From Lysobacterales bacterium (lineage in GTDB: Bacteria > Pseudomonadota > Gammaproteobacteria > Xanthomonadales > SZUA-36): a DNA stretch of 62,498 bases. The notes beneath the pieces were generated by a model. That model searched no databases, was not told where the DNA came from, and was given only the letters and a program-made list of their open reading frames with translations. Of the stretch, positions 11,893 through 36,104 are shown in pieces (the first letter of the stretch is position 1; every line of letters starts with the position of its first letter). The DNA lies in assembly GCA_013042915.1 (NCBI GenBank), contig JABDPF010000061.1:1-62498 (forward strand), given 5' to 3'. Position numbers and translations under genes: made by a program.

Positions 11893-13119
11893 TCAAAATT
11901 TTTTGTTCTGCACGCGCGACAGGCCGACGACCAGGACCAGGGCCAGGGACGTCAGCACCGCAAACCCGGACGCAACCGCGTACAGCGTGCCATCGTAAGC
12001 CTGGCCTATTGCGTAGCCCAGCGCGACGGCCAACAGCGTGCTGGCCGTGCCGATCACCGCCGCGGCCGACCCCGCGACGTGGCCAAGCGGCTCCATGGCC
12101 ATGGCGTTGATGTTACCGAACACCACGCCGATAAAGAAAAACCAGGCGAGACCGATGGCCATGAATTGCCACAGCGGCGGTTGGCCACCCGCCAGGCCGG
12201 TCGCCGTGAGCAACAGCCACGACAGCGCGGTGACGAAGGCAAGCGCCCGATGCGCCAGCACGTGCATTCCAAATCGCATCACCAGGTTTCCGTTGATGAT
12301 GGCGGCAACCCCGGCCGAAAAGGCCAGGCCACCGAAAAACAGGGGAAACAGCTTGCCGAGTCCGTATTGCACCTGGAACACGGCCTGGCAGGTATTCAGA
12401 TACCCCATGAACGCGCCGAAAACGCAGCCGGCCACGAGTGTGTAGACCATCGCCGGGCCGTTGCGCATCACTTCCAGGAACCCGTTTACGATACCCGCCA
12501 GGGTGAACGGACGGCGATAAGCCGGCGGCAGCGTCTCGGGCTGGCGCCAATGGAGCCAGCCTGCCACGAACAGGCTGAACGCCACGAAAAAGGCGAAGAT
12601 CGACCGCCAGCTCGTGACCAGCAAGATGAGCTGACCGAGGGCCGGTGCAAGGATCGGCACGAGGATGAAAATGGTCATGACGAAGGACATGACCCGCGCC
12701 ATCGCCGAGCCTTGGAACCGGTCCCGGATCAGCGCCATCGCAACCGACCGCGGGCCGGCGGCGCCGAACCCCTGGAGAAAACGCCCAACGAGCATGGTGG
12801 CAAAGTTGGTGGCAAACATCGAGATCAGCGAGCCGGCGATCAGGATAAGGAACCCGGCGTACATGGTGGGTTTGCGGCCGATCGAATCGGACAGGGGGCC
12901 GTAAAAAGGCAATCCCAGCGCGACGCCGATGAACATCAGCGAAATCACGAGCTGGATGTCGTTGGGGGATGCGGGCTGCAGGTCGCGGGCCATCGCGGGA
13001 AACGCCGGCAGCATCATGTCGATGCTCAGCGCCACCAGCGACATGGTCACCGCCATCAGGACGATGAACTCGCCGAAACCCGAGGACTCGTGGGCATGGG
13101 GCTGCGTGTCGACGTTCAC
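11893..13119 (-). CDS. MFS efflux transporter, Bcr/CflA type
   Basis: This is an inner-membrane proton-driven drug or metabolite exporter with 12 predicted helices in 408 residues. The N-terminal half carries SIDMMLPAFPAMARDL and GPLSDSIGRKPTMYAG, the latter being MFS motif A (GxLSDxxGRKP). GRFLQGFGAAGPRSVAMALI is motif B/C-like and characteristic of DHA1 Bcr/CflA exporters. It is a single gene on the minus strand, 38 bases downstream of recQ. The substrate cannot be predicted. Confidence 0.85.
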   Translation of the reverse strand: MNVDTQPHAHESSGFGEFIVLMAVTMSLVALSIDMMLPAFPAMARDLQPASPNDIQLVISLMFIGVALGLPFYGPLSDSIGRKPTMYAGFLILIAGSLISMFATNFATMLVGRFLQGFGAAGPRSVAMALIRDRFQGSAMARVMSFVMTIFILVPILAPALGQLILLVTSWRSIFAFFVAFSLFVAGWLHWRQPETLPPAYRRPFTLAGIVNGFLEVMRNGPAMVYTLVAGCVFGAFMGYLNTCQAVFQVQYGLGKLFPLFFGGLAFSAGVAAIINGNLVMRFGMHVLAHRALAFVTALSWLLLTATGLAGGQPPLWQFMAIGLAWFFFIGVVFGNINAMAMEPLGHVAGSAAAVIGTASTLLAVALGYAIGQAYDGTLYAVASGFAVLTSLALVLVVGLSRVQNKKF

Positions 13120-13157
13120 CGCTCCCTCCCGGTGGTCTACCCGAAAGAACTACCTTC

Positions 13158-14951
13158 TCAGAAAGAGGCCTCGGCGGCAATGACTTCGAGGAAGGCGTCG
13201 CCATACCGCTCCAGCTTGACTTTGCCGACACCGTTAACCGCCAGGAATTCTTCCGGATCGCGCGGCTTGGCCCGGGACATTTCCACCAGCGCCGAGTCGC
13301 CGAAGACGATGTAGGGGGGCACGCCGGCCTCTTCCGCCAATTCCCGCCTCAGGGTGCGCAGTTTTTCGAACAGTTCCTGGTCCGGTGGACCCAGCTCCAG
13401 TGCGACCGCCGGCTTTTTCCGAGTTTTTTCACGAATCCGTGGCCGGGCCAGCTCCACGTCTTTCTCGCCGCGCAGCACGGCCAGCGCCCTCGGGGTGAGC
13501 TTCAGCACCGAAAAGGCGGCCACGTCTTGCTCGAGGTACCCAAGATGGATCAACTGCCGGGTGATGGACATCCACTCGGCGTGGCTGTGCTCCATGCCGA
13601 TGCCGTAGGTCGTGAGGTTGTCGTGGGCAAAGCGCCGAATGCGCTCGTTGTCGGCGCCGCGCAGCACGTCGACGACGTGCTTCATGCCAAAGGACTGGCG
13701 AACGCGGTAGACGCAGGAAAGCACCTTGCGCGCCGCCTCGGTGCCGTCGAAGGTCTCCGGCGGATCGAGGCAGACATCGCAATTGCCGCAGTCCTCCTCG
13801 AGCCGCTCGCCGAGGTAACCCAGCAGAACCCGCCGCCGGCAGGACTGGCTCTGGGCGAAACCGACCATCGAGTTGAGCTTGTGCATCTCGATGCGTTTCT
13901 GGTCCTCGTTCCGGCCCTGCTCCATCTGGTACCGAGCCATCGCGGCGTCCTGCGCGCCGAACAGCAGCAGGGCCTCGGCAGGCAGCCCGTCCCGGCCCGC
14001 CCGCCCGGTTTCCTGGTAATAGCCCTCCAGGTGGCGCGGAAGGTCGTAATGCACAACGAAGCGCACGTTGGGCTTGTCGATACCCATACCGAAAGCCACG
14101 GTGGCCACGACGATGGCAACATCGTCGCGCACGAACCGTTCCTGGACGTCCCTGCGCGTCGCGGCACCGAGACCCGCGTGGTAAGCCGCGGCGGACAGCC
14201 CCCGGTCCTGCAGATGCCCGGCGATTTCCTCCACCCGCTTGCGCGAGAGCGCGTAGACGATCCCGGACTCGATCTCGCGGCCGGCGAGGAAGCGCAGCAA
14301 CTGGGCGTGGGGCTGATGCTTTTCGAGCACCGTGTAACGGATGTTCGGCCGGTCGAAACTGGTCACGAAACGGCGCGCGCCCTGCAGGCGGAGGACCTCC
14401 ACGATATCTTCGCGGGTCTGCGGGTCGGCGGTCGCCGTCAGCGCGATGAAGGGCGTGCCCGGGAAGTGCTCCCGCAAGCCTCCCAGTGCAACGTACTCTG
14501 GCCGGAAATCGTGCCCCCACTGGGAAACGCAATGCGCTTCGTCGATCGCGATCAGCGCGATCTCCATGCTCTCCAGGCTGTGCAGAAAGCCCGGCTTCAT
14601 CATCCGCTCGGGCGCGACGTACAGCAGGTCGAGTTCACCGGCGTGCAGATGTTCGAGCACGTCCCGCGCCTCACCAGCGTCGAGATTGGAGTTGTACATC
14701 GCGGCCCGCACACCATTGGCTTGCAGCGCATCCACCTGGTCTTTCATCAACGAGATCAAAGGCGAGACGACAATCGTCAAGCCGCTGCGCTGCAGGGCGG
14801 GCAGTTGGTAACACAATGATTTGCCGCCGCCGGTCGGCATCAGGACAAAGGCATCGCCCCCCGACACGACCTGATCGATGATTTCCCGCTGGTGCGGCCG
14901 GAACTCCTTCAGGCCGAAAACCTCTTGCAGCGTGTCGCGAATTTCGCTCAT
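13158..14951 (-). CDS. recQ: ATP-dependent DNA helicase RecQ
   Basis: This 3'-5' DNA helicase of 597 residues acts in recombination and fork repair. It shows MPTGGGKSLCYQLPAL (Walker A), IDEAHCVSQWGHDFRPEY (DEAH box plus aromatic loop) and GRAGRDG (motif VI). A zinc-binding cluster follows (CRRR, CGNCDVC), then a winged helix. The C-terminal HRDC domain begins near ELFEKLRTLRREL and ends IAAEASF. Length and domain order match E. coli RecQ (about 609). A TATAAT (14978-14983, minus strand) lies 26 bases before the start and is a candidate -10. Confidence 0.95.
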   Translation of the reverse strand: MSEIRDTLQEVFGLKEFRPHQREIIDQVVSGGDAFVLMPTGGGKSLCYQLPALQRSGLTIVVSPLISLMKDQVDALQANGVRAAMYNSNLDAGEARDVLEHLHAGELDLLYVAPERMMKPGFLHSLESMEIALIAIDEAHCVSQWGHDFRPEYVALGGLREHFPGTPFIALTATADPQTREDIVEVLRLQGARRFVTSFDRPNIRYTVLEKHQPHAQLLRFLAGREIESGIVYALSRKRVEEIAGHLQDRGLSAAAYHAGLGAATRRDVQERFVRDDVAIVVATVAFGMGIDKPNVRFVVHYDLPRHLEGYYQETGRAGRDGLPAEALLLFGAQDAAMARYQMEQGRNEDQKRIEMHKLNSMVGFAQSQSCRRRVLLGYLGERLEEDCGNCDVCLDPPETFDGTEAARKVLSCVYRVRQSFGMKHVVDVLRGADNERIRRFAHDNLTTYGIGMEHSHAEWMSITRQLIHLGYLEQDVAAFSVLKLTPRALAVLRGEKDVELARPRIREKTRKKPAVALELGPPDQELFEKLRTLRRELAEEAGVPPYIVFGDSALVEMSRAKPRDPEEFLAVNGVGKVKLERYGDAFLEVIAAEASF

Positions 14952-28676: not shown

Positions 28677-29546
28677 TCAGGTGGCCCGGCTGCTGCCGCT
28701 ACCGACGATGGCGCGGACGTAATCGGCGAGTCGCGCCACCGACTCGGTTTCCTTTCGATCCTTGTGCAGCAGGTGGATTCCCACCGGGCCCAATCGCGGG
28801 AAGCGTGAGGAGGCGGGCAGAATCCTCAGGGAATCCGGCACGGTTTTCTGAGCCAGGACGGTCACGCCGAGCCCCTCCTCGATCGCGGTCTGGATGCCCG
28901 AAATATCGGTGTTGGTGTAGGAAATCCTCCAGGAGCGACCACAATCCTTCAAAGCTTTGATTGCCCTGGCCCGGTACAGGCAGGGCGTGGGTGCGACGAT
29001 CAGCGGCAGGGTGCGCTGGCGGTGGGTGTCGTGCTGGGGACTGGTCGCCCAGACCAGTTCATCCGTGCCGATCCATGACGGTGCATCCGGTTCGGGCGTG
29101 TCCCGCAAAGCGAGAATCAGGTCGTACGGATTAGGCTGCTCGGCCACCAGGTTGACGCTCAGGTCGCAATGGATTTCAAGCGTGACCGCCGGGTAAGAAT
29201 GCGAAAAACGCCCCAGCACCTTTGGCAGCAGGATGGTGGCAAATTCACTGGGAATACCAAAACGGATACGGCCCGACAGCGTGGGGGCAGACAGTTCCGC
29301 CAGCGCCTCGTCGTTGAGCGCCAGGATTTGCCGAGCGTATTCCCGTAACCGCTCCCCCGAAGGCGTCAGGTCGAGCCTGGCGCCCCCGCGGATCATCAAT
29401 TGGGTGCCCATCAGTTCCTCCATTTTCTTGATCTGGAGACTGATGGCCGGTTGGGTTCGGCCCAGAATCTGGCCGGCCTGGGTGAAACCCTTGACCTCCG
29501 AGACCGTTACGAACGCTCGAAGGCAGTCCATCGGAAGGTTGCGCAT
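28677..29546 (-). CDS. LysR-family transcriptional regulator
   Basis: This DNA-binding regulator of 289 residues has the LysR N-terminal winged HTH (LRAFVTVSEVKGFTQAGQIL, then GRTQPAISLQIKKMEELMG). The substrate-binding domain runs from about residue 90 to the end (SGRIRFGIPSEFATILLPKVL). It is transcribed divergently from the aminotransferase/transketolase/GcvT-SHMT operon across a 209-base spacer. The half nearest this gene (29550-29600) is strongly AT-rich. By the usual LysR layout it probably controls that operon and itself, with an amino acid or one-carbon metabolite as effector (inference). Confidence 0.9.
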   Translation of the reverse strand: MRNLPMDCLRAFVTVSEVKGFTQAGQILGRTQPAISLQIKKMEELMGTQLMIRGGARLDLTPSGERLREYARQILALNDEALAELSAPTLSGRIRFGIPSEFATILLPKVLGRFSHSYPAVTLEIHCDLSVNLVAEQPNPYDLILALRDTPEPDAPSWIGTDELVWATSPQHDTHRQRTLPLIVAPTPCLYRARAIKALKDCGRSWRISYTNTDISGIQTAIEEGLGVTVLAQKTVPDSLRILPASSRFPRLGPVGIHLLHKDRKETESVARLADYVRAIVGSGSSRAT

Positions 29547-29694
29547 GGTTCTCTCATAAATATTTCTTATCTATTCATATTAATAATAAATTTAACAAAT
29601 GCCCAGCGATTTCTTAGCATGGGGTTACCGCCCACCGCACAGAACAGCGGAACGCCCGGCAGAGGCGTGGAGAGTGCTTCGAAAAGAATCGGCC

Positions 29695-29723
29695 GCCCGG
29701 CCACGGTAACGCCGTGGGCGGGC
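29695..29723 (+). other. Stable hairpin in the leader of the aminotransferase operon
   Basis: GCCCG-G-CCACGG (29695-29706) pairs with CCGTGG-G-CGGGC (29712-29723) with one mismatch and the 5-base loop TAACG. It ends 32 bases before the aminotransferase ATG and could influence transcript stability or initiation. No U-tract follows. Confidence 0.45.
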
Positions 29724-29755
29724 GCATTGATGGAGAACTGCAGCAGGGGCACACC

Positions 29756-31054
29756 ATGAAATTGATCTCAGAGCGCACCGCGCGCATCAACACCGAAAAT
29801 GCCTTCAAGGTCGGACCGTACATCGCCGCGCTGGAGGAGGCCGGCAACACCGTCATAAAGTGCAACCTCGGCGAACCGGATTTCCCGCTGGCCGCCCACA
29901 TCCGCGATGAGGTCAAGCGGCAGCTCGACCTCGACAACGTTCACTACACCAATCCCCAGGGCGTTCCGTCCCTGCGCAAGGCCGTGGCCAAATACATCGG
30001 CGAAGCCCGCGGGCTGGACTATTCACCCGAGCAGGTCGTGGTGTTCCCCGGCGGCAAGCCGCCAATCGGCATGTGCCAGCAGACCTACACCAATCCGGGC
30101 GATGAAATCATCTACCCGAGCCCGGGGTTCCCGATCTACGAATCCTTCATCCGCTACGTGGGCGCCGTTCCGGTGCCTTTGCACCTGCGCGAAGAAATCG
30201 GCTTCAGCTTTACCGGCGCCGACCTGGAAAAACTGATTACGCCGAAGACCAAGCTGATTTACATGAACTTTCCGTCCAACCCGACCGGCGGCGTGGCGTC
30301 GCGGCAACAGCTTGAAGAGATTGCCGACGTCATCCTGCGCACCTGCGACGAAAACGTTCGCATTTACTCGGACGAGATTTACGAGAACATCCTGTTCGAC
30401 GGCGCAGAGCATTATTCGATCGCCTCTATCCCGGGCATGAAGGACAAGACCCTGATCGCGACCGGCGCGTCAAAATCCTACTCCTGGACCGGCGGTCGGA
30501 TCGGCTGGGTGGTCTTCCCGACGATCGAGGAGGCCAAGCTGTTCACGAACCTCAACATCAACTACTTTTCCTGCATCCCGCCCTACAACCAGGAGGGTGC
30601 CACGCTGGCCATCGAGGCGCCCGAAAGCAAGCACAGCATCGCCGAGATGAACGCGGCCTTCGAGCGCCGCCGCGACTTCGTCGTCGATGCGCTCAACGCG
30701 ATGCCGGGCGTGACCTGCCAGAAGCCAAGCGGCGCGTTTTACGTGTTCCCGAATATCGCGGGCGTGGTCGAAAACCTGGGCATTGCCGAGGCCTACGCGG
30801 GACTGCCGGATGATGTGAAACGCACAACCAGCCCCTCCACGCTGTTCCAGATGTTCCTGCTGTGGGAATACTGCGTGGCCACCATGGACCGCAAGTCGTT
30901 CGGCCAGATCGGCGCGGAGAACATGCACTTTCTGCGCCTGTCCATCGCCACCGGCATGGACGACCTGAAGATCGGCATGGAGCGGATGGCCGGGGCGGTC
31001 AACGACAAGGCAGGGTTCGACCGGTTCATCGAGGCCGGCGAGCACTTCTCATGA
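29756..31054 (+). CDS. PLP-dependent class I/II aminotransferase
   Basis: This is a fold-type I aminotransferase of 432 residues. It shows CNLGEPDFPLAAHI (substrate loop), FPSNPTGG, YSDEIYENI (PLP Asp) and GASKSYSWTGGRIGW with the Schiff-base Lys. The C-terminal LRLSIATG contains the carboxylate-binding Arg. These are features of the AspB-like subgroup, which covers aspartate, alanine and glutamate-pyruvate enzymes. I chose the ATG at 29756, preceded by AGGGG, over the longer start at 29714. It opens a tight operon: its stop is 17 bases before the transketolase-like ATG. The amino donor is unknown; glyoxylate, pyruvate or hydroxypyruvate would suit the neighbours. Confidence 0.88.
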   Translation: MKLISERTARINTENAFKVGPYIAALEEAGNTVIKCNLGEPDFPLAAHIRDEVKRQLDLDNVHYTNPQGVPSLRKAVAKYIGEARGLDYSPEQVVVFPGGKPPIGMCQQTYTNPGDEIIYPSPGFPIYESFIRYVGAVPVPLHLREEIGFSFTGADLEKLITPKTKLIYMNFPSNPTGGVASRQQLEEIADVILRTCDENVRIYSDEIYENILFDGAEHYSIASIPGMKDKTLIATGASKSYSWTGGRIGWVVFPTIEEAKLFTNLNINYFSCIPPYNQEGATLAIEAPESKHSIAEMNAAFERRRDFVVDALNAMPGVTCQKPSGAFYVFPNIAGVVENLGIAEAYAGLPDDVKRTTSPSTLFQMFLLWEYCVATMDRKSFGQIGAENMHFLRLSIATGMDDLKIGMERMAGAVNDKAGFDRFIEAGEHFS

Positions 31055-31071
31055 ATTCCAAGGAGCACACC

Positions 31072-33420
31072 ATGTCATACGAACTCAACCTGAAAGAGCG
31101 CGGCATCGAATTCGTTTCGCTGAAACCCGAGGACTGCCCCACGCTGCCGTCGGACCAGCAGGACAGCCTGGAATTCTTCGACCTGTGCTACCGCACGCTG
31201 TGTGCCGTCATGTTCAACCACGCCTCGAGCGGCCATCCGGGCGGCAGCGTTTCTTCCGGCCGCATCGTGCAGTCGCTGGTGTTCAACCGGATGGACTACG
31301 ACATCGGCAACCCGATGGACCGTAGCGCTGACGTCATTTCCTACGCGGCCGGCCACAAGGCCCTGGGCCTGTATGCCTGGTCCGCGCTGCGCAACGAAGT
31401 CGTGCGGCTGGTCGCCCCTGACCAGTTGCCCGAAGACGTGCGCCAACAGATGCGCCTTGAGGACATCCTCGGCTTCCGCAAGAACCCCATCACCTCCACC
31501 CCGCTGTTCCGCGAATTTGGCGCCAAGCCGCTCGACGGCCATCCGACACCGGAAACCCCCTTCGTGTGGCTGTCCACCGGCCCCAGCGGCGTGGGTGTCG
31601 CGACCTCGGTCGGGCTCGCGATGACGCTAAAGGACATGCATCGCGAGAGTGCTCCGGCCGTGCATATCATTGAGGGCGAAGGCGGCATGACGCCGGGCCG
31701 CGTGGCAGAGGCGCTGGCTTCTGCAGCCACCTCCGGGCTGGATAATCTCTATTTCCACGTCGACTGGAACCAGGCTTCGATTGACTCCAATGCCGTGACC
31801 CGCGACGGCGGCACACCCGGCGAATACGTGCAGTGGGACCCCTGCGAATTCCTGCTGATGCAGGGTTTCAACGTGATCTACGTGGAGAACGGCTTCGATT
31901 TTGCACAGGTCCGCGAAGCCCAGAAACGCGCCGAGGCCATCAACAACGGCCGGCCGACCGGCATCGTCTATCGCACGGTGAAAGGCTGGAAATACGGCAT
32001 CGAGGGCTGCAAGTCGCACGGCGCCGGCCACGGCTTCTACAGCCCGGAGTACCTGGAGTCGCTGCGGCCCTTCGAGGAGAAAACCGGCATTACCTTCCCC
32101 CGTTTCGAAGGCGAGAAAGACCCGGTCCAGGTCGAACAGGCCTTCTACGAATCCCTGCTGGCTATCCGCAGCGCGTTCGAGCACAACATGGCGCTGACTC
32201 GCCAGCTGGCCGATTGGGTGCTGAACGCCCGCCAGCGCCTGCTGGATGCGCCGCGCGCGCTGCGCGAGGATGCGCCGGTGCTCGCCAAGCTGTACGAAGA
32301 CGGCGCCATTTCGCCGCTGGAACGCCCGGAAGGATTGGTTTACGAGGCCGGCTCCAAGCAAACCCTGCGCGGCGCTCTGAGCCAGGTGATGCACCACGTC
32401 AACGTGCTGACCGGCGGCGCCGTGCTGGCGGCCGCAGCCGACCTGTACGGCTCGACCAACGTGGCCGGCATCACCAAGGGCATGGGCAGCGGTTTCTGGC
32501 ACCCGCTGAGCAATCCCGAGTCCCGCCTGTTCTCGGCCGGCGGCATCGCCGAGGACGCGATGGGCGGCATTTCCTCGGGCATCGCCACCATGGGCCACCA
32601 GATCGCGGTCGGCTCATCGTACGGAGCCTTCATCGCTCCGCTGAACGTGATCTGCGCCAAGACCCACGGCATCGGCATGCAGACCCTGCGCCATCGCGCT
32701 CCGGACGAGCCCAACAAGACGTTCATGATCGTCTGTGGCCACGCCGGCGTGAAAACCGGTGAGGACGGCCCGACCCACGCCGAGCCGCAGGCCCTGCAGG
32801 TTTTCCAGGAGAACTTCCCCGGTGACGTGATGATCACGCTGACCCCCTGGGACCCGAACGATCTGTGGCCGCTGACCGTCGAGGCGCTGCTGCAGCGCCC
32901 GGCCGTGGTCGCCCCATTCGTGACCCGTCCCTCGGAAGTCATCGTCGACCGCGAGGCGCTGGGCCTGGCCCCGGCCGAGGCCTCCGTGAAGGGCGTTTAC
33001 AAACTGCTCGAAGCCAACGGTACGCCCGACGCCACCCTGGTCTACCAGGGCTCCGACGTGGCCTACGCCTTCGTCAGCGGCGTGCTGCCGCGGCTGAAAG
33101 AAACCGGCATGAACCTCGATGTGTACTATGTTTCCAGCGTGGAGCTGTTCGACCGGCTGGACGAAGCCGAGCGCGAAGCGATTTTCCCGGCCGCCAAGGC
33201 GGCTGAGGCCATGATGTTCTCGGGCTTCACGGTGGGCACCACGTACCGATGGGTCACCTCGGAGCGCGGACGCCAGTTCACCCACTACCCGTGGAAGCAC
33301 GGCCAGTTCCTGGGTTCCGGCCCGGGCGATGTCTGCCTCGAACAGGCCGGCATGCACGGCGAAGCGCAGTGGGGCATCATCCAGAAGTTCGTTTCCGGCG
33401 GCCTGCGCGCTGCCAGCTAG
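31072..33420 (+). CDS. Transketolase-like TPP enzyme
   Basis: This is a thiamine-diphosphate enzyme of 782 residues in the transketolase/homodimeric E1 superfamily. The N-terminal domain has SSGHPGGSVSSG, LSTGPSGVGVATSVGLAM and a metal/TPP segment GEGG...DWNQASID in place of the usual GDG...N. The central domain has FSAGGIAEDAMGGISSGIA with the likely catalytic Glu and EDGPTHAEPQAL. It lacks the length of AceE (about 887) and is longer than ordinary transketolase (about 660). I chose the ATG at 31072 because AAGGAG lies at ideal distance; an ATG at 31051 overlaps the upstream stop. Its donor and acceptor are unknown; its neighbours suggest ketol or acyl chemistry on C2-C3 units. Confidence 0.8.
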   Translation: MSYELNLKERGIEFVSLKPEDCPTLPSDQQDSLEFFDLCYRTLCAVMFNHASSGHPGGSVSSGRIVQSLVFNRMDYDIGNPMDRSADVISYAAGHKALGLYAWSALRNEVVRLVAPDQLPEDVRQQMRLEDILGFRKNPITSTPLFREFGAKPLDGHPTPETPFVWLSTGPSGVGVATSVGLAMTLKDMHRESAPAVHIIEGEGGMTPGRVAEALASAATSGLDNLYFHVDWNQASIDSNAVTRDGGTPGEYVQWDPCEFLLMQGFNVIYVENGFDFAQVREAQKRAEAINNGRPTGIVYRTVKGWKYGIEGCKSHGAGHGFYSPEYLESLRPFEEKTGITFPRFEGEKDPVQVEQAFYESLLAIRSAFEHNMALTRQLADWVLNARQRLLDAPRALREDAPVLAKLYEDGAISPLERPEGLVYEAGSKQTLRGALSQVMHHVNVLTGGAVLAAAADLYGSTNVAGITKGMGSGFWHPLSNPESRLFSAGGIAEDAMGGISSGIATMGHQIAVGSSYGAFIAPLNVICAKTHGIGMQTLRHRAPDEPNKTFMIVCGHAGVKTGEDGPTHAEPQALQVFQENFPGDVMITLTPWDPNDLWPLTVEALLQRPAVVAPFVTRPSEVIVDREALGLAPAEASVKGVYKLLEANGTPDATLVYQGSDVAYAFVSGVLPRLKETGMNLDVYYVSSVELFDRLDEAEREAIFPAAKAAEAMMFSGFTVGTTYRWVTSERGRQFTHYPWKHGQFLGSGPGDVCLEQAGMHGEAQWGIIQKFVSGGLRAAS

Positions 33421-33461
33421 ACAGGGCCTGGCCCCGGCTTGGTCCTTGAGGAAAAGTCACG

Positions 33462-36104
33462 ATGAGTGAAACGCTGCGAACCGTTTTCTACGATAGCCAT
33501 GTCGAGGCAGGTGCCCGTATCGTCGAGTTCGGCGGCTGGGACATGCCGCTGCAGTTCGTGGGCATCCTGCAAGAGCACCTGGTCACCCGCAAGGGCGCCG
33601 GCCTGTTCGACGTGTCCCACATGGGGCGCTTCTTCGTTCGAGGCAAGGGCGCGCTGCCCTTCATGCAGCATGCGCTGAGCAACAACGCGGCCAGCCTGGA
33701 CGCCGGCATCGGCCAGTATACGATGATCCCCAACGAGACCGGCGGCGTGCTGGACGATGCCTACCTGTATCGATTCGTCGAGGACGAATTCCTGCTGGTC
33801 GTGAACGCGGCCAACCGCGAGAAGGACTGGGCTCATCTCGAAGCGGTCCGGGCCGGTTTTCCCGACTGCGAGATGGTCGATCGAACCCTCGAGGTCGCGA
33901 TGCTGAGCCTGCAGGGCCCGCTGGCCCGCGAGGTAATGGAAGGCGTAACCGACAGCCCGTTGCCCGATCCGATGCGCAACGAGCTGGGCATCGTCGATAT
34001 CGACGGCGCCCGCGTGCTCCTGGCCAGAACGGGTTACACGGGCGAGCCGATCTGTTTCGAGCTGTTCATCGAGCGCGGCGACGCGGTGCGGGTCTACCGC
34101 CTTCTGCTGGAAAACGGCGCCACCCCGGTGGGCCTGGGCGCGCGCGATTCCCTGCGCCTGGAGGCCGGCCTGCCGCTGTACGGCCACGAACTGGGACACG
34201 ACCCCGAGGGCCAGGAGATTCCGGCCTTTGCGTCCGACCTGAGCCGCTTCGCGGTCAGCTTCTCGCCGCTCAAGGGCGATTTCATCGGCCGCAAACCGCT
34301 GCTGGAGCAGTTCCGGGCACTCAAGCGCATCACCGACCTCAAGTTCACCGAGATCGACGCACTGCCCCGCCGCATCCGGCTGCTGGAAATTGCCGGACGC
34401 GGCATCGCCCGCCCCGGCGACAAGGTATTCCGGGACGGCCAGCACGTCGGCTTCATCACCAGCGGCACGATGGTGCCGTACTGGAGCACCGAGGGCGAAG
34501 GCGTCGAGTCCCGCTTCGGCGACGACAGCGTCAAGCGCGCGATCGCGATGGCGCTGCTCGACAGCGAGTTGCTGGACGAAGACGAGGTGACCGTGGAAAT
34601 CCGCGGCCGGGAGACGCCCGCGCTGATCGTGCCCTACCTGCTGCGCGGCGAGGCGCCGCCTTTCGCGCGCTCGATCTCGCACCTCAAGCCCGAAGAAGAA
34701 CCCGCGCCGTTAAGTGACCGCAGCTACCCCGAACGCGCCGCCGACCTGCTCGACAGTGCGATCGCCAACACCCGCTGGCGACAGCACGAGTGCATCAACC
34801 TGATCCCGTCCGAAATGACAATGTCGGCGGCCACCCGGATGCTGTCCATCATGGACCCGGTCGGACGCTATGCCGAGCACAAGCAGGTCAAGGCGCTGAA
34901 CGAGGCCGAGGTGTTCTACTACCAGGGCACCGAGTTCATCTGGGAAGTCGAGGAACTGCTCAAAAAGGAATTCATGGCCTTCCTGGGCTGTGGTTCCGTG
35001 GAAGCGCGTCTGGTGTCGGGCCAGATGGCCAACGCCACCGTGTTCAGCGCGATGGTCGATTATCTCAACCGCGCCGACCGCAAGAGCGAGCAGCGCCGCA
35101 TGCGGATGGTGATGAACAACCACATCATCAAGGGCGGTCACCTGTCCTCGCAGCCGATGGGCGCGCTCAAAGACTACGTCGCCCGCGACCCGCGCACCGA
35201 GAAAGCGGCGGCGGTGAATTTTCCCGTGCACGCCCACGACAAGTACCGCATCGACACCGAGGCCACGCGCGAGTTGCTGGCCGAGCACAAGCCGGAACTG
35301 GTGATCCTGGGCAAGAGCATGGTGCTCTACCCCGAACCCGTGGCGGAACTGCGTCGATTTATCGACGAGATGGGCCTGGACACATTCCTGATGTACGACA
35401 TGGCCCACGTACTGGGCCTGGTCGGACCGCACTTCCAGCAACCGTTCGAAGAAGGCGCGGACATCGTGACCGGCTCCACCCACAAGACCTTCTTCGGAAC
35501 CCAGCGCGGCGTGATCGGCTCGCGCTTCACCGAGCACGACGTGCTGTACCCCTACTGGGAGGCCGTCGAGCGCCGCGCCTTCCCGGGCGCCGTGTCCAAC
35601 CACCACCTCGGCACGCTGCTGGGCCTGCTGATGGCGGCCTACGAGATGAACACCTTCAAGGCCGACTACCAGCCGGCCGTGATTGCCAACGCCAAGGCCT
35701 TCGCCAAAGCGCTGAAAGACTGCGGTCTGAAGGTGTCCGGTGACCCCGAGGTCGGCTACACCCAGACCCACCAGGTGCTGTTGGACGTGGGCTGGACCCG
35801 TGGCCCCGAAATCGCCCGCCGCCTGGAAGAGAACAACATCATCGTCAACTACCAGGCCGCGCCGGAAGAAGAAGGTTTCACCGCGTCGGGCTCACTGCGC
35901 ATGGGAGTCTCGGAAATGACCCGTTTCGGTATGGGCCCCGGGGACTTCGGCGAACTGGCGGAACTGATCCGCGACGTGGTGCTCGACGCCGCCACCGTCA
36001 AGCCGCGGGTGGCCGAATTCCGCAAGCGCTTCGGTGAGATGCGGTACTGTTTCACGGAGCGTGAACTGGAAGAGCGAACTGGGCTTCTGCACGAACTGAT
36101 CTGA
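33462..36104 (+). CDS. GcvT-SHMT fusion protein
   Basis: This 880-residue protein joins two folate enzymes. Residues 1 to about 405 are a T-protein/GcvT domain (EFGGWDMPLQF, GLFDVSHMGRF, GGVLDDAYLYR with the catalytic Asp near 98, RTGYTGE, GLGARDSLRLEAGLPLYG). Residues from about 425 are a divergent serine hydroxymethyltransferase (INLIPSEMTMS, YAEH, FYYQGTEFI, YDMAHVLGLV, TGSTHKTFFGTQRG with the PLP Lys near 675, and SLRMGVSEMTRFGMG). Both active sites look intact. The genes for the P, H and L glycine-cleavage proteins are not adjacent. A methylene-THF made by the first half could be used directly by the second to make serine (inference). It is the last gene of a three-gene operon, 41 bases after the TPP enzyme. 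Confidence 0.88.
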   Translation: MSETLRTVFYDSHVEAGARIVEFGGWDMPLQFVGILQEHLVTRKGAGLFDVSHMGRFFVRGKGALPFMQHALSNNAASLDAGIGQYTMIPNETGGVLDDAYLYRFVEDEFLLVVNAANREKDWAHLEAVRAGFPDCEMVDRTLEVAMLSLQGPLAREVMEGVTDSPLPDPMRNELGIVDIDGARVLLARTGYTGEPICFELFIERGDAVRVYRLLLENGATPVGLGARDSLRLEAGLPLYGHELGHDPEGQEIPAFASDLSRFAVSFSPLKGDFIGRKPLLEQFRALKRITDLKFTEIDALPRRIRLLEIAGRGIARPGDKVFRDGQHVGFITSGTMVPYWSTEGEGVESRFGDDSVKRAIAMALLDSELLDEDEVTVEIRGRETPALIVPYLLRGEAPPFARSISHLKPEEEPAPLSDRSYPERAADLLDSAIANTRWRQHECINLIPSEMTMSAATRMLSIMDPVGRYAEHKQVKALNEAEVFYYQGTEFIWEVEELLKKEFMAFLGCGSVEARLVSGQMANATVFSAMVDYLNRADRKSEQRRMRMVMNNHIIKGGHLSSQPMGALKDYVARDPRTEKAAAVNFPVHAHDKYRIDTEATRELLAEHKPELVILGKSMVLYPEPVAELRRFIDEMGLDTFLMYDMAHVLGLVGPHFQQPFEEGADIVTGSTHKTFFGTQRGVIGSRFTEHDVLYPYWEAVERRAFPGAVSNHHLGTLLGLLMAAYEMNTFKADYQPAVIANAKAFAKALKDCGLKVSGDPEVGYTQTHQVLLDVGWTRGPEIARRLEENNIIVNYQAAPEEEGFTASGSLRMGVSEMTRFGMGPGDFGELAELIRDVVLDAATVKPRVAEFRKRFGEMRYCFTERELEERTGLLHELI

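Follow-up and report, generated by a model that had tools for sequence, protein, structure and literature searches.

The window analysed here, a stretch of 62,498 nt, carries a three-gene operon for an aminotransferase (AT), a transketolase-like enzyme (TK) and a protein that joins a glycine cleavage T-protein (GcvT) to a serine hydroxymethyltransferase (SHMT). We propose, with a probability of roughly 0.55, that this operon is a route for assimilating glycine carbon, in which glycine is converted to serine, serine to hydroxypyruvate, and hydroxypyruvate to sugar phosphates. Gene order, folds, catalytic residues, co-inheritance, gcv neighbours and riboswitches are read from sequence, a structure model and comparison of genomes. 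From these we infer every substrate, the direction of the reactions, the transfer of folate between the two halves of the fusion and the TK acceptor.

Organization of the locus

Open reading frames and Pfam domains confirm the gene positions, the three-gene operon and the divergent LysR gene given in a first-pass annotation of this DNA (Table 1). The LysR gene is followed by the AT, TK and fusion genes, in that order. Because the three-gene set recurs in related and distant genomes, it is not a chance arrangement. Chance open reading frames were dropped; long antisense frames, such as 33417-34682 (-), lie across a conserved gene encoded on the other strand.

Table 1. Features of the operon and its upstream region
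Feature	Coordinates	Strand	Basis
LysR-type regulator, divergent from operon	28677..29546	-	PF00126 + PF03466
Divergent promoter region	29547..29755	.	sequence; between LysR and AT
Class I/II AT, 432 aa, proposed serine:2-oxo-acid aminotransferase	29756..31054	+	PF00155
Transketolase-like ThDP enzyme of 782 aa, putative ketol transferase with hydroxypyruvate as proposed donor	31072..33420	+	PF00456, PF02779
GcvT-SHMT fusion, 880 aa	33462..36104	+	PF01571 residues 9-247, PF08669 303-339, PF00464 431-836
T-protein half, residues 1 to about 407	33462..34682	+	NF001567, TIGR00528, match to 1yx2
SHMT half, residues about 422-867, PLP lysine = residue 675	34725..36062	+	PF00464, match to 4bhd

TK could also start at an ATG (31051) that overlaps the AT stop codon, but a ribosome-site-like AGGAG precedes the start at 31072. 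The region between the LysR and AT genes has one promoter-like match, compared with an average of 1.0 in shuffled sequence, and no glycine aptamer was found in it; riboswitch control in the window was therefore discarded. LysR genes 66-68% identical to that of the window are divergent to AT-TK in three genomes (G280, G785 and G787) and were not seen beside AT-TK in G782 and G784. The LysR protein is probably the regulator of the window operon.

The GcvT-SHMT fusion

The fusion is best read as a T-protein and an SHMT in one chain, with a predicted conversion of glycine to serine. Structure prediction, proposed as a check in the first-pass annotation, yields two halves that match these folds. 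In the AlphaFold model (pLDDT 83.5), residues 3-398 align with T-protein 1yx2 (Z 46.4, rmsd 1.8, 356 aligned) and residues 422-867 with M. jannaschii SHMT 4bhd (Z 43.3, rmsd 2.2, 392 aligned, 33% identity). The SHMT half is also near threonine transaldolase 7k34 (Z 40.7).

Both active sites had been described as intact, and an alignment of 25 fusion family members with E. coli GcvT and GlyA bears this out. The catalytic Asp of GcvT (E. coli D97, window D98) is Asp in 25/25 members, and the SHMT equivalents of Y55, E57, Y65, H126, D200, H203, H228, K229 and R363 are likewise kept in 25/25. Substitutions in the SHMT half are T226 to Ser and, in all 25 members, R235 to Gln and N347 to Gln.

The T half scores above curated GcvT cut-offs (NF001567, 308.7 against 300; TIGR00528, 252.8 against 235.85), and a Pfam scan of the fusion found no FAD domain joined to it. 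The SHMT half passes the PF00464 cut-off (E 7.1e-36) and falls below that of NCBIfam PRK00011 (242.3 bits against 335). Its description as divergent is upheld: it is 28% identical to E. coli GlyA, and also 28% identical to the GlyA of its own genome, and its best sequence scores are to M. jannaschii SHMT chains (169 bits), followed by threonine transaldolase (99.6) and the next SHMT chain (89.5). Judged by sequence, the SHMT half is outside the canonical GlyA subfamily.

The transketolase-like enzyme and the aminotransferase

TK is about 22% identical to TktA and about 120 residues longer. It matches the Pfam models TK_N (62.1 bits, cut-off 22) and Transket_pyr (41.6, cut-off 27), with a C-terminal PF22613 score just below threshold (26.1 bits, cut-off 27), and falls well under the curated transketolase cut-off (TIGR00232, 108.1 bits against 682.25). 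Equivalents of TktA H26, H66, R91, H100, S385, E411, H461, D469, H473 and R520 are kept in 15/15 TKs. The Mg-ligand Asp155 of TktA is Glu in all 15, and none aligns an Arg with R358, which we take to be the residue that binds the acceptor phosphate. Arg433, invariant in six TK sequences, sits seven residues beyond the R358 position. Transketolase residues S385, D469, R520 and R91 are discussed in passages of PMC5073344, and the same passages do not mention R358.

TK forms a long branch of its own in a small tree that includes two ordinary transketolases. These comparisons place it in a sister subfamily rather than among TktA-type enzymes, as a deep and rare branch. Of 321 genomes sampled from the class, the window genome alone has it, and the TK of a Nitrospiraceae genome, G372, is the sole one in a 395-genome sample of that phylum. 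No close TK was found on plasmids: all 49 records are <60% identical, and the ten listed are 22-28% identical. A structure model of TK, built from 6 sequences, has a pLDDT of 49. Assignment as a pyruvate dehydrogenase E1 was rejected (AceE scores 29.6 bits over 185 residues, TktA 83.6).

The AT exceeds the PF00155 cut-off (169.3 bits against 19.7, E 1.8e-49), and its best PDB sequence matches are aspartate and aromatic aminotransferases. Its clade includes the ATs of G372 and of G300. The latter is nested among ATs of TK-fusion-AT loci and adjoins a gene nearest to glyoxylate/hydroxypyruvate reductases (closest to glyoxylate reductase, 379 bits, under the cut-off of 455). The pairing with TK, the SHMT half and this G300 neighbour together suggest that the AT acts on serine. 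With glyoxylate reductase as the best match of the G300 gene, glyoxylate/glycine may instead be the couple that the AT uses, which counts against the proposed route.

Distribution of the three genes

The fusion search covered 41 relatives, supplemented by a reading of the TK loci, and TK was searched in 39 family genomes. Fusion genes are present in 7/41 relatives, and all seven of these genomes also carry TK and AT, so the three genes are co-inherited. TK is found in 14/39 family genomes. The AT is adjacent to it or one gene away in 12 of the 14, lies on a separate contig in another (G287), and was not found in G294, a genome that is 77% complete. AT-TK occurs with no adjoining fusion in G280, G782 and G787. 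By gene order, AT and TK form a unit that also exists without the fusion.

A search for the three-gene neighbourhood, as suggested at first pass, recovers the set in the family, in one Nitrospiraceae genome and on one Actinomycetota contig. G372, the Nitrospiraceae genome, has fusion, TK and AT, all at three separate loci. The Actinomycetota contig has the order AT-fusion-TK. These are the only two of 22 genomes searched outside the family that contain TK, and both have the fusion; TK is absent from the other 20, and from 16/18 of the outside genomes where the SHMT half is seen. Among 274 sampled genomes of the class just one other, G055, carries the fusion, with neither AT nor TK near it. Rare co-occurrence had been named as grounds for doubting a joint function; this doubt is not borne out within the family, but outside it retains force, with TK in 2/22 genomes searched.

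Such a distribution could mean that the operon is a set of convenient paralogues under common regulation with no pathway, the fusion being a second T-protein and SHMT for glycine cleavage, TK a second pentose-phosphate enzyme and the AT a general one. The TK-free distant genomes and the AT-TK pairs without fusion favour this. We consider this reading unlikely: a TK so rare in its class and in the G372 phylum is nevertheless found in fusion-bearing genomes of Nitrospiraceae and Actinomycetota, and two distinct AT lineages adjoin the fusion.

Genomic context of related loci

Glycine cleavage genes are frequent neighbours of the fusion outside the family. gcvH is nearby in 7/20 such loci (L017-L022 and L179), six of which also have lpd; the hosts are Vescimonas fastidiosa, a Nitrospiraceae genome, and members of Oscillospiraceae and Deltaproteobacteria. 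The order in V. fastidiosa is fusion-gcvH-gcvPA-gcvPB-lpdA. At the Nitrospiraceae locus L022, gcvH, gcvPA, gcvPB, LipS1, LipS2 and LplA lie ahead of the fusion. At L019, gcvPA-gcvH-Lrp is divergent from lpd-fusion-SerK-like-SerB-like. In two Desulfobacterales loci (L009 and L010), the fusion neighbours recur and look unrelated; those of L010 are TPR, LysM, MFS, DUF4124, GDSL lipase, DnaJ and NUDIX genes.

Glycine riboswitches control gcv genes. They are found upstream in 5/21 fusion loci searched (L020, L021, L022, L029 and L179); several of the 21 have short upstream stretches, and the search covered loci other than L006, L008, L012, L013, L026, L027, L028 and L114. The riboswitch at L029, the Actinomycetota locus, scores 62.1 bits and stands before AT-fusion-TK. 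A role in natural-product biosynthesis was discarded, as no such genes were found among the neighbours scanned and the glycine riboswitches point to glycine catabolism.

AT-TK pairs have neighbours of another kind. In G782 they are near a corrinoid methyl-transfer cluster (MttB family, MtgC-like, methyl-THF methyltransferase and RACo-type genes), and in G785 LysR-AT-TK adjoins a methyl-THF methyltransferase. The L029 riboswitch, these methyl-transfer genes and the reductase-like gene of G300 support a reading in which glycine or C1 units are converted to serine and AT and TK handle the resulting keto acid.

GlcD-like glycolate oxidase genes lie upstream of TK in Nitrospiraceae, and L019 has one, 62% identical, downstream of its fusion. 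At the Nitrospiraceae locus L152, TK shares a strand with genes that are GlcD-like, GlcF/LdhH-like, DUF1537 (D-threonate-kinase-like, 342 bits, cut-off 450), PdxA-like and xylose-isomerase-like (TIM barrel); 12002-13453 is presumably GlcE. This gene set raises the prospect of glycolate/glyoxylate salvage, in which the AT would make glycine from glyoxylate and glyoxylate would receive a C2 unit from TK, forming 3-oxo-tetronate (2,4-dihydroxy-3-oxobutanoate) for phosphorylation and decarboxylation to triose phosphate. The G300 neighbour fits such a scheme, and the S385, H461 and R520 equivalents of TK make up an anion pocket in which a carboxylate could fit. However, between TK and the L152 kinase and PdxA genes lie three genes as well as 268- and 396-base gaps, and the kinase, PdxA and TIM-barrel genes have no match in 37 other fusion, TK or AT stretches or in the window. 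The scheme supposes its chemistry with glyoxylate as acceptor and leaves the SHMT half without a special role, and we regard it as improbable.

The first-pass annotation had noted that no P, H or L gene is adjacent, and indeed gcvH, gcvPA, gcvPB and lpd (queries from L019) have no match anywhere in the window. Its suggestion that the route is self-contained is not supported: gcvH lies near fusions outside the family, and the window genome encodes GcvT and GcvH on contig C62, GcvP on C105 and GlyA on C19. An H-protein encoded elsewhere is one part of the finding it had set against its proposal, the other being halves that work only as ordinary GcvT and GlyA. What stands of that proposal is a C1/glycine-to-serine route in which AT and the TPP enzyme handle keto acids, together with joint inheritance of the genes. 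An arrangement in which the T half draws C1 units straight from methylated amines or amino acids, bypasses H-protein and feeds the SHMT half is very improbable: T-protein folds do occur in dimethylglycine- and sarcosine-oxidising enzymes (5l46, 1pj6 and 2gag among the structure matches), and the G782 cluster and the missing P/H/L genes are compatible with it, but the T half exceeds curated GcvT cut-offs, lacks the FAD domain of those enzymes, and has homologues near gcvH. Two extra GcvT-like genes of the window genome adjoin dimethylargininase-like and CrtO-like genes, with no obvious link.

A proposed route from glycine to sugar phosphates

In the glycine assimilation route that we prefer, the T half would take the aminomethyl group from H-protein, which like P is encoded elsewhere in the genome, to form methylene-THF. 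With this unit, or with one released when methylated amines are demethylated, the SHMT half would convert a second glycine to serine, which the AT would turn into hydroxypyruvate. TK would then use hydroxypyruvate as a decarboxylating ketol donor, placing a C2 unit (with release of CO2) onto an aldose phosphate and thereby supplying the pentose phosphate pool. Because its donor is decarboxylated, this step would be nearly one-way. LysR would control the window operon, and the glycine riboswitch would take its place at the Actinomycetota locus.

The AT-TK pair suggests a shared 2-oxo acid, most naturally hydroxypyruvate, which makes serine to hydroxypyruvate to C2 on aldose the likeliest sequence. 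Passages of PMC7403953 and PMC5573996 present hydroxypyruvate as a well-known 2-oxo-acid ketol donor of transketolases, and PMC5573996 notes that the reaction with hydroxypyruvate has been termed irreversible and is initially under kinetic control.

In favour of the route are the gcv neighbours, glycine riboswitches, co-inheritance, the AT-TK unit, the G300 neighbour and the GlcD-like genes. Against it, the window genome also holds ordinary GcvT, GlyA and TK genes, which would suffice for the plain reactions. Further points against it are fusions outside the family that mostly lack TK, AT-TK pairs without fusion, and NCBIfam SHMT and TK scores under cut-offs. Passing hydroxypyruvate to transketolase also costs one carbon as CO2 compared with a glycerate route.

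At slightly under even odds, the operon would be a naturally occurring pathway from glycine and C1 units to sugar, with hydroxypyruvate made from serine as the dedicated physiological source of ketol units for a new TK subfamily; glycerate would be bypassed and folate carbon passed within the fusion chain. Titles and abstract openings of the literature matches listed contain no natural AT-TK hydroxypyruvate pathway, and titles and abstract openings likewise yielded no description of a GcvT-SHMT fusion. The fusions in the parts seen of PMC6451014 are DHFR-TS and HPPK-DHPS, and the main text of PMC12827605, which deals with the Desulfobacterota version of the reductive glycine pathway, does not contain 'fusion', 'fused' or 'GcvT'.

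Comparison with known systems

Hydroxypyruvate is the classic laboratory donor of transketolase, and the proposed route would give it a dedicated natural use. TK resembles the TktA family as a ThDP enzyme with N-terminal and pyrimidine domains and conserved catalytic equivalents, but differs in its length, low identity, Asp-to-Glu Mg ligand, absent Arg358 and separate branch. The serine cycle and the photorespiratory route also proceed from glycine and methylene-THF through serine to hydroxypyruvate, and the reductase-like gene beside the G300 AT recalls them. Here, in contrast, a transketolase would take the place of reductase and glycerate kinase in using hydroxypyruvate. If so, cells that grow on C1 compounds, glycine, glycolate or betaine could reach the pentose phosphate pool without glycerate kinase.

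Dimethylglycine- and sarcosine-oxidising enzymes also fuse a T-protein fold to a second enzyme, so a folate unit could pass within one chain. Their partner is a flavoenzyme that supplies the unit, whereas the PLP enzyme here would consume it. The fused T-protein/SHMT would offer a ready-made part for engineering the assimilation of glycine or C1 units, and a system in which folate channelling could be examined.

Another close counterpart is the GcvT and GlyA pair that makes serine from glycine in photorespiration and the reductive glycine pathway. The same two reactions are expected, the catalytic residues are intact, and in other phyla the fusion keeps company with gcvH, gcvPA, gcvPB, lpd and glycine riboswitches. 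Unlike that pair, the two enzymes form one chain with an SHMT half nearer to archaeal SHMT (33%, against 28% for GlyA), and the window operon lacks P, H and L and adds AT and TK. In the human gut bacterium V. fastidiosa, the fusion is annotated only as gcvT.

Operon architecture and the fusion protein

The window corresponds to contig C96 in a draft Lysobacterales genome of 2.69 Mb (96% complete). The first-pass annotation described a LysR-type regulator gene divergent from genes for an aminotransferase (AT), a transketolase-like thiamine diphosphate (ThDP) enzyme (TK) and a GcvT-SHMT fusion, and this layout is confirmed at the positions listed below. The AT and TK genes are closely spaced: an ATG overlaps the AT stop codon, and the ATG at 31072 has the better upstream ribosome site.

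Genes of the AT-TK-fusion operon and the divergent LysR-type gene in the window
Feature	Position	Strand	Domains
LysR-type regulator gene	28677-29546	-	
AT gene	29756-31054	+	
TK-like gene	31072-33420	+	
GcvT-SHMT fusion gene	33462-36104		PF01571, PF08669, PF00464

Both halves of the fusion keep their expected active site features. The T-protein catalytic Asp is present in all 25 members when aligned with E. coli GcvT. Relative to E. coli GlyA, the equivalents of Y55, E57, Y65, H126, D200, H203, H228, K229 and R363 are invariant in the SHMT half (25/25), and Gln replaces R235 and N347 in every member. An AlphaFold model built from a 21-sequence alignment (pLDDT 83.5, pTM 0.72) has a T-protein fold at residues 3-398 (match to 1yx2, Z 46.4) and an SHMT fold at residues 422-867 (match to 4bhd, the M. 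jannaschii SHMT, Z 43.3). The T half exceeds the curated GcvT cut-offs. The SHMT half misses the PRK00011 cut-off and is 28% identical to GlyA and, in the structure alignment, 33% identical to the archaeal enzyme. A threonine transaldolase is structurally close as well (Z 40.7), which makes the SHMT activity of this half a prediction. The fusion is very probably a working T-protein joined to an SHMT.

The residues for ThDP catalysis are retained in TK, and its substrate pocket is largely conserved. In all 15 sequences compared, the Mg-ligand Asp is replaced by Glu and position 358 lacks Arg. The H261 position aligns with Ala or Gly, and an SHG motif lies two residues earlier. The component proteins belong to known families. 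No description of the GcvT-SHMT chain, the TK subfamily or the three-gene set was found in the literature searched, a body of work that takes in few subscription journals.

Distribution and co-inheritance

When each species was represented by a single genome, the scan confirmed 216 relatives, and the 80 best loci were retained. Full-length fusions (48-78% identical) are present in 20 of these best 80 loci (L006-L024 and L026), with hosts among Lysobacterales, Chromatiales, Desulfobacterales, other Deltaproteobacteria, Nitrospiraceae, Oscillospiraceae, Sedimentisphaerales and others. Contig ends interrupt the fusion in L025, L027, L028 and L039, and the SHMT half is reached only in L025. Loci L032-L085 match the T half only. 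Within the window's class, the fusion occurs in the window genome and G055 alone among 274 sampled genomes. An Actinomycetota copy (L029 6127-8552) is split into two frames near the end of the T half, reflecting either an assembly error or a broken gene.

Among 41 relatives, the fusion is found in seven, TK in nine and AT in nine, and each of the seven fusion genomes carries all three genes. Outside the family, TK is present in 2 of 22 genomes reached via other loci (51-52% identical by blastp); the SHMT half of the fusion is seen in 18 of these 22. TK is confined to the window genome among 321 genomes of its class.

Six of the eight known family fusion loci have the order TK-fusion with AT convergent behind; contig ends interrupt this order in G287, and the window has AT-TK-fusion. 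TK occurs in 14 of 39 family genomes, eight of which also carry the fusion. AT-TK is not followed by the fusion in G280, G782 and G787. The contig stops just after or inside TK in G784 and G785, and behind TK in G294, where AT was not found. A LysR gene 66-68% identical to that of the window is divergent from AT-TK in G280, G785 and G787; no such gene was seen at AT-TK in G782 or G784.

In the Actinomycetota genome G376, AT, fusion and TK form a single locus (L029), in this order, under a glycine riboswitch. The Nitrospiraceae genome G372, the sole TK carrier in a 395-genome sample of its phylum, has fusion, TK and AT (59%) at three separate places. In the AT tree, window-type ATs form one well-supported clade that takes in those of G372 and G300, and the ATs adjoining the fusion in L029 and L025 form a second, distant clade; deeper joins are unsure owing to long branches. 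In G300, the window-type AT lies 170 bases behind a 2-hydroxyacid dehydrogenase gene that falls short of the cut-off of each of its nearest models (glyoxylate reductase, phosphoglycerate dehydrogenase and GhrB).

Association with glycine cleavage genes and riboswitches

Some fusions in other lineages adjoin glycine cleavage genes. Behind the fusion of Vescimonas fastidiosa come gcvH, gcvPA, gcvPB, lpdA and a 5-formyl-THF cyclo-ligase gene. In the Nitrospiraceae locus L022, gcvH, gcvPA, gcvPB and genes for LipS1, LipS2 and LplA lie upstream. In the deltaproteobacterial locus L019, gcvPA, gcvH and an Lrp-type regulator are divergent from lpd-fusion-SerK-like-SerB-like, behind which lie GlcD-like and GlcE-like genes. 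Queries from L019 detect gcvH at 7 of the 20 fusion loci that lie outside the family (L017-L022 and L179), six of which also have lpd; none of these genes has a match in the window or at any fusion locus of the family. Glycine riboswitches precede the fusion at 5 of 21 loci searched (L020, L021, L022, L029 and L179). The gcv neighbours and riboswitches therefore argue that the fusion cooperates with the glycine cleavage system, at least elsewhere. The window's own genome encodes GcvT and GcvH on contig C62, GcvP on C105 and GlyA on C19.

The Vescimonas fusion, from a gut bacterium (L179 7001-9646, NZ_AP023416.1), is annotated merely as gcvT, and immediately upstream are genes for a cobalamin-dependent protein, a homocysteine S-methyltransferase family member and a DUF2284 protein. 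The genes behind the fusion in Deltaproteobacteria (L019 8119-14877, L018 5149-6550) match SerK weakly (75.6 bits, cut-off 380) and SerB at 116.6 bits (cut-off 144), which suggests a second serine exit through phosphoserine.

A candidate route from glycine to sugar

That AT and TK travel as a pair suggests a common 2-oxo acid. Hydroxypyruvate is the prime candidate, being the known 2-oxo-acid substrate of transketolases and derivable from serine, the expected fusion product. Glycolate, glycine or methylated amines would yield glycine and methylene-THF, which would be combined into serine; serine would be converted to hydroxypyruvate, from which a C2 unit would be placed on an aldose. We give this whole chain a probability of about 0.55. 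Against it, ordinary GcvT, GlyA and TK genes are also present in the same genome, the fusion mostly occurs without TK, AT-TK can occur without the fusion, and one CO2 would be lost per serine.

AT and TK could instead serve a glyoxylate or C4-acid pathway, as the DUF1537 kinase and PdxA-like genes of G372 might indicate; neither has a counterpart in the window or among 37 further stretches, and we regard this alternative as improbable. The G372 stretch (L152 6937-17375) carries D-threonate-kinase-like, PdxA-like, GlcD-like, GlcF/LdhH-like, TK-like and xylose-isomerase-like TIM barrel genes on one strand.

Routes feeding the proposed serine-to-hydroxypyruvate pathway would vary by genome, judging from the neighbours of TK and the fusion. 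GlcD-like and related genes precede TK in G372 and come after the fusion in L019. In G785, a methyl-THF methyltransferase gene adjoins LysR-AT-TK. A methylated-amine-type cluster is present within the window's family, in G782 (L190 8828-14000), where genes for an MttB family protein, an MtgC-like corrinoid protein, a DUF1638 protein, a methyl-THF methyltransferase and a RACo-type activator are divergent from AT-TK. Elsewhere in the window's own genome (contig C22, L124 3943-8307), a protein with a GcvT-like domain, a relative of TMAO demethylase, is encoded beside CrtO/CrtI-like genes.
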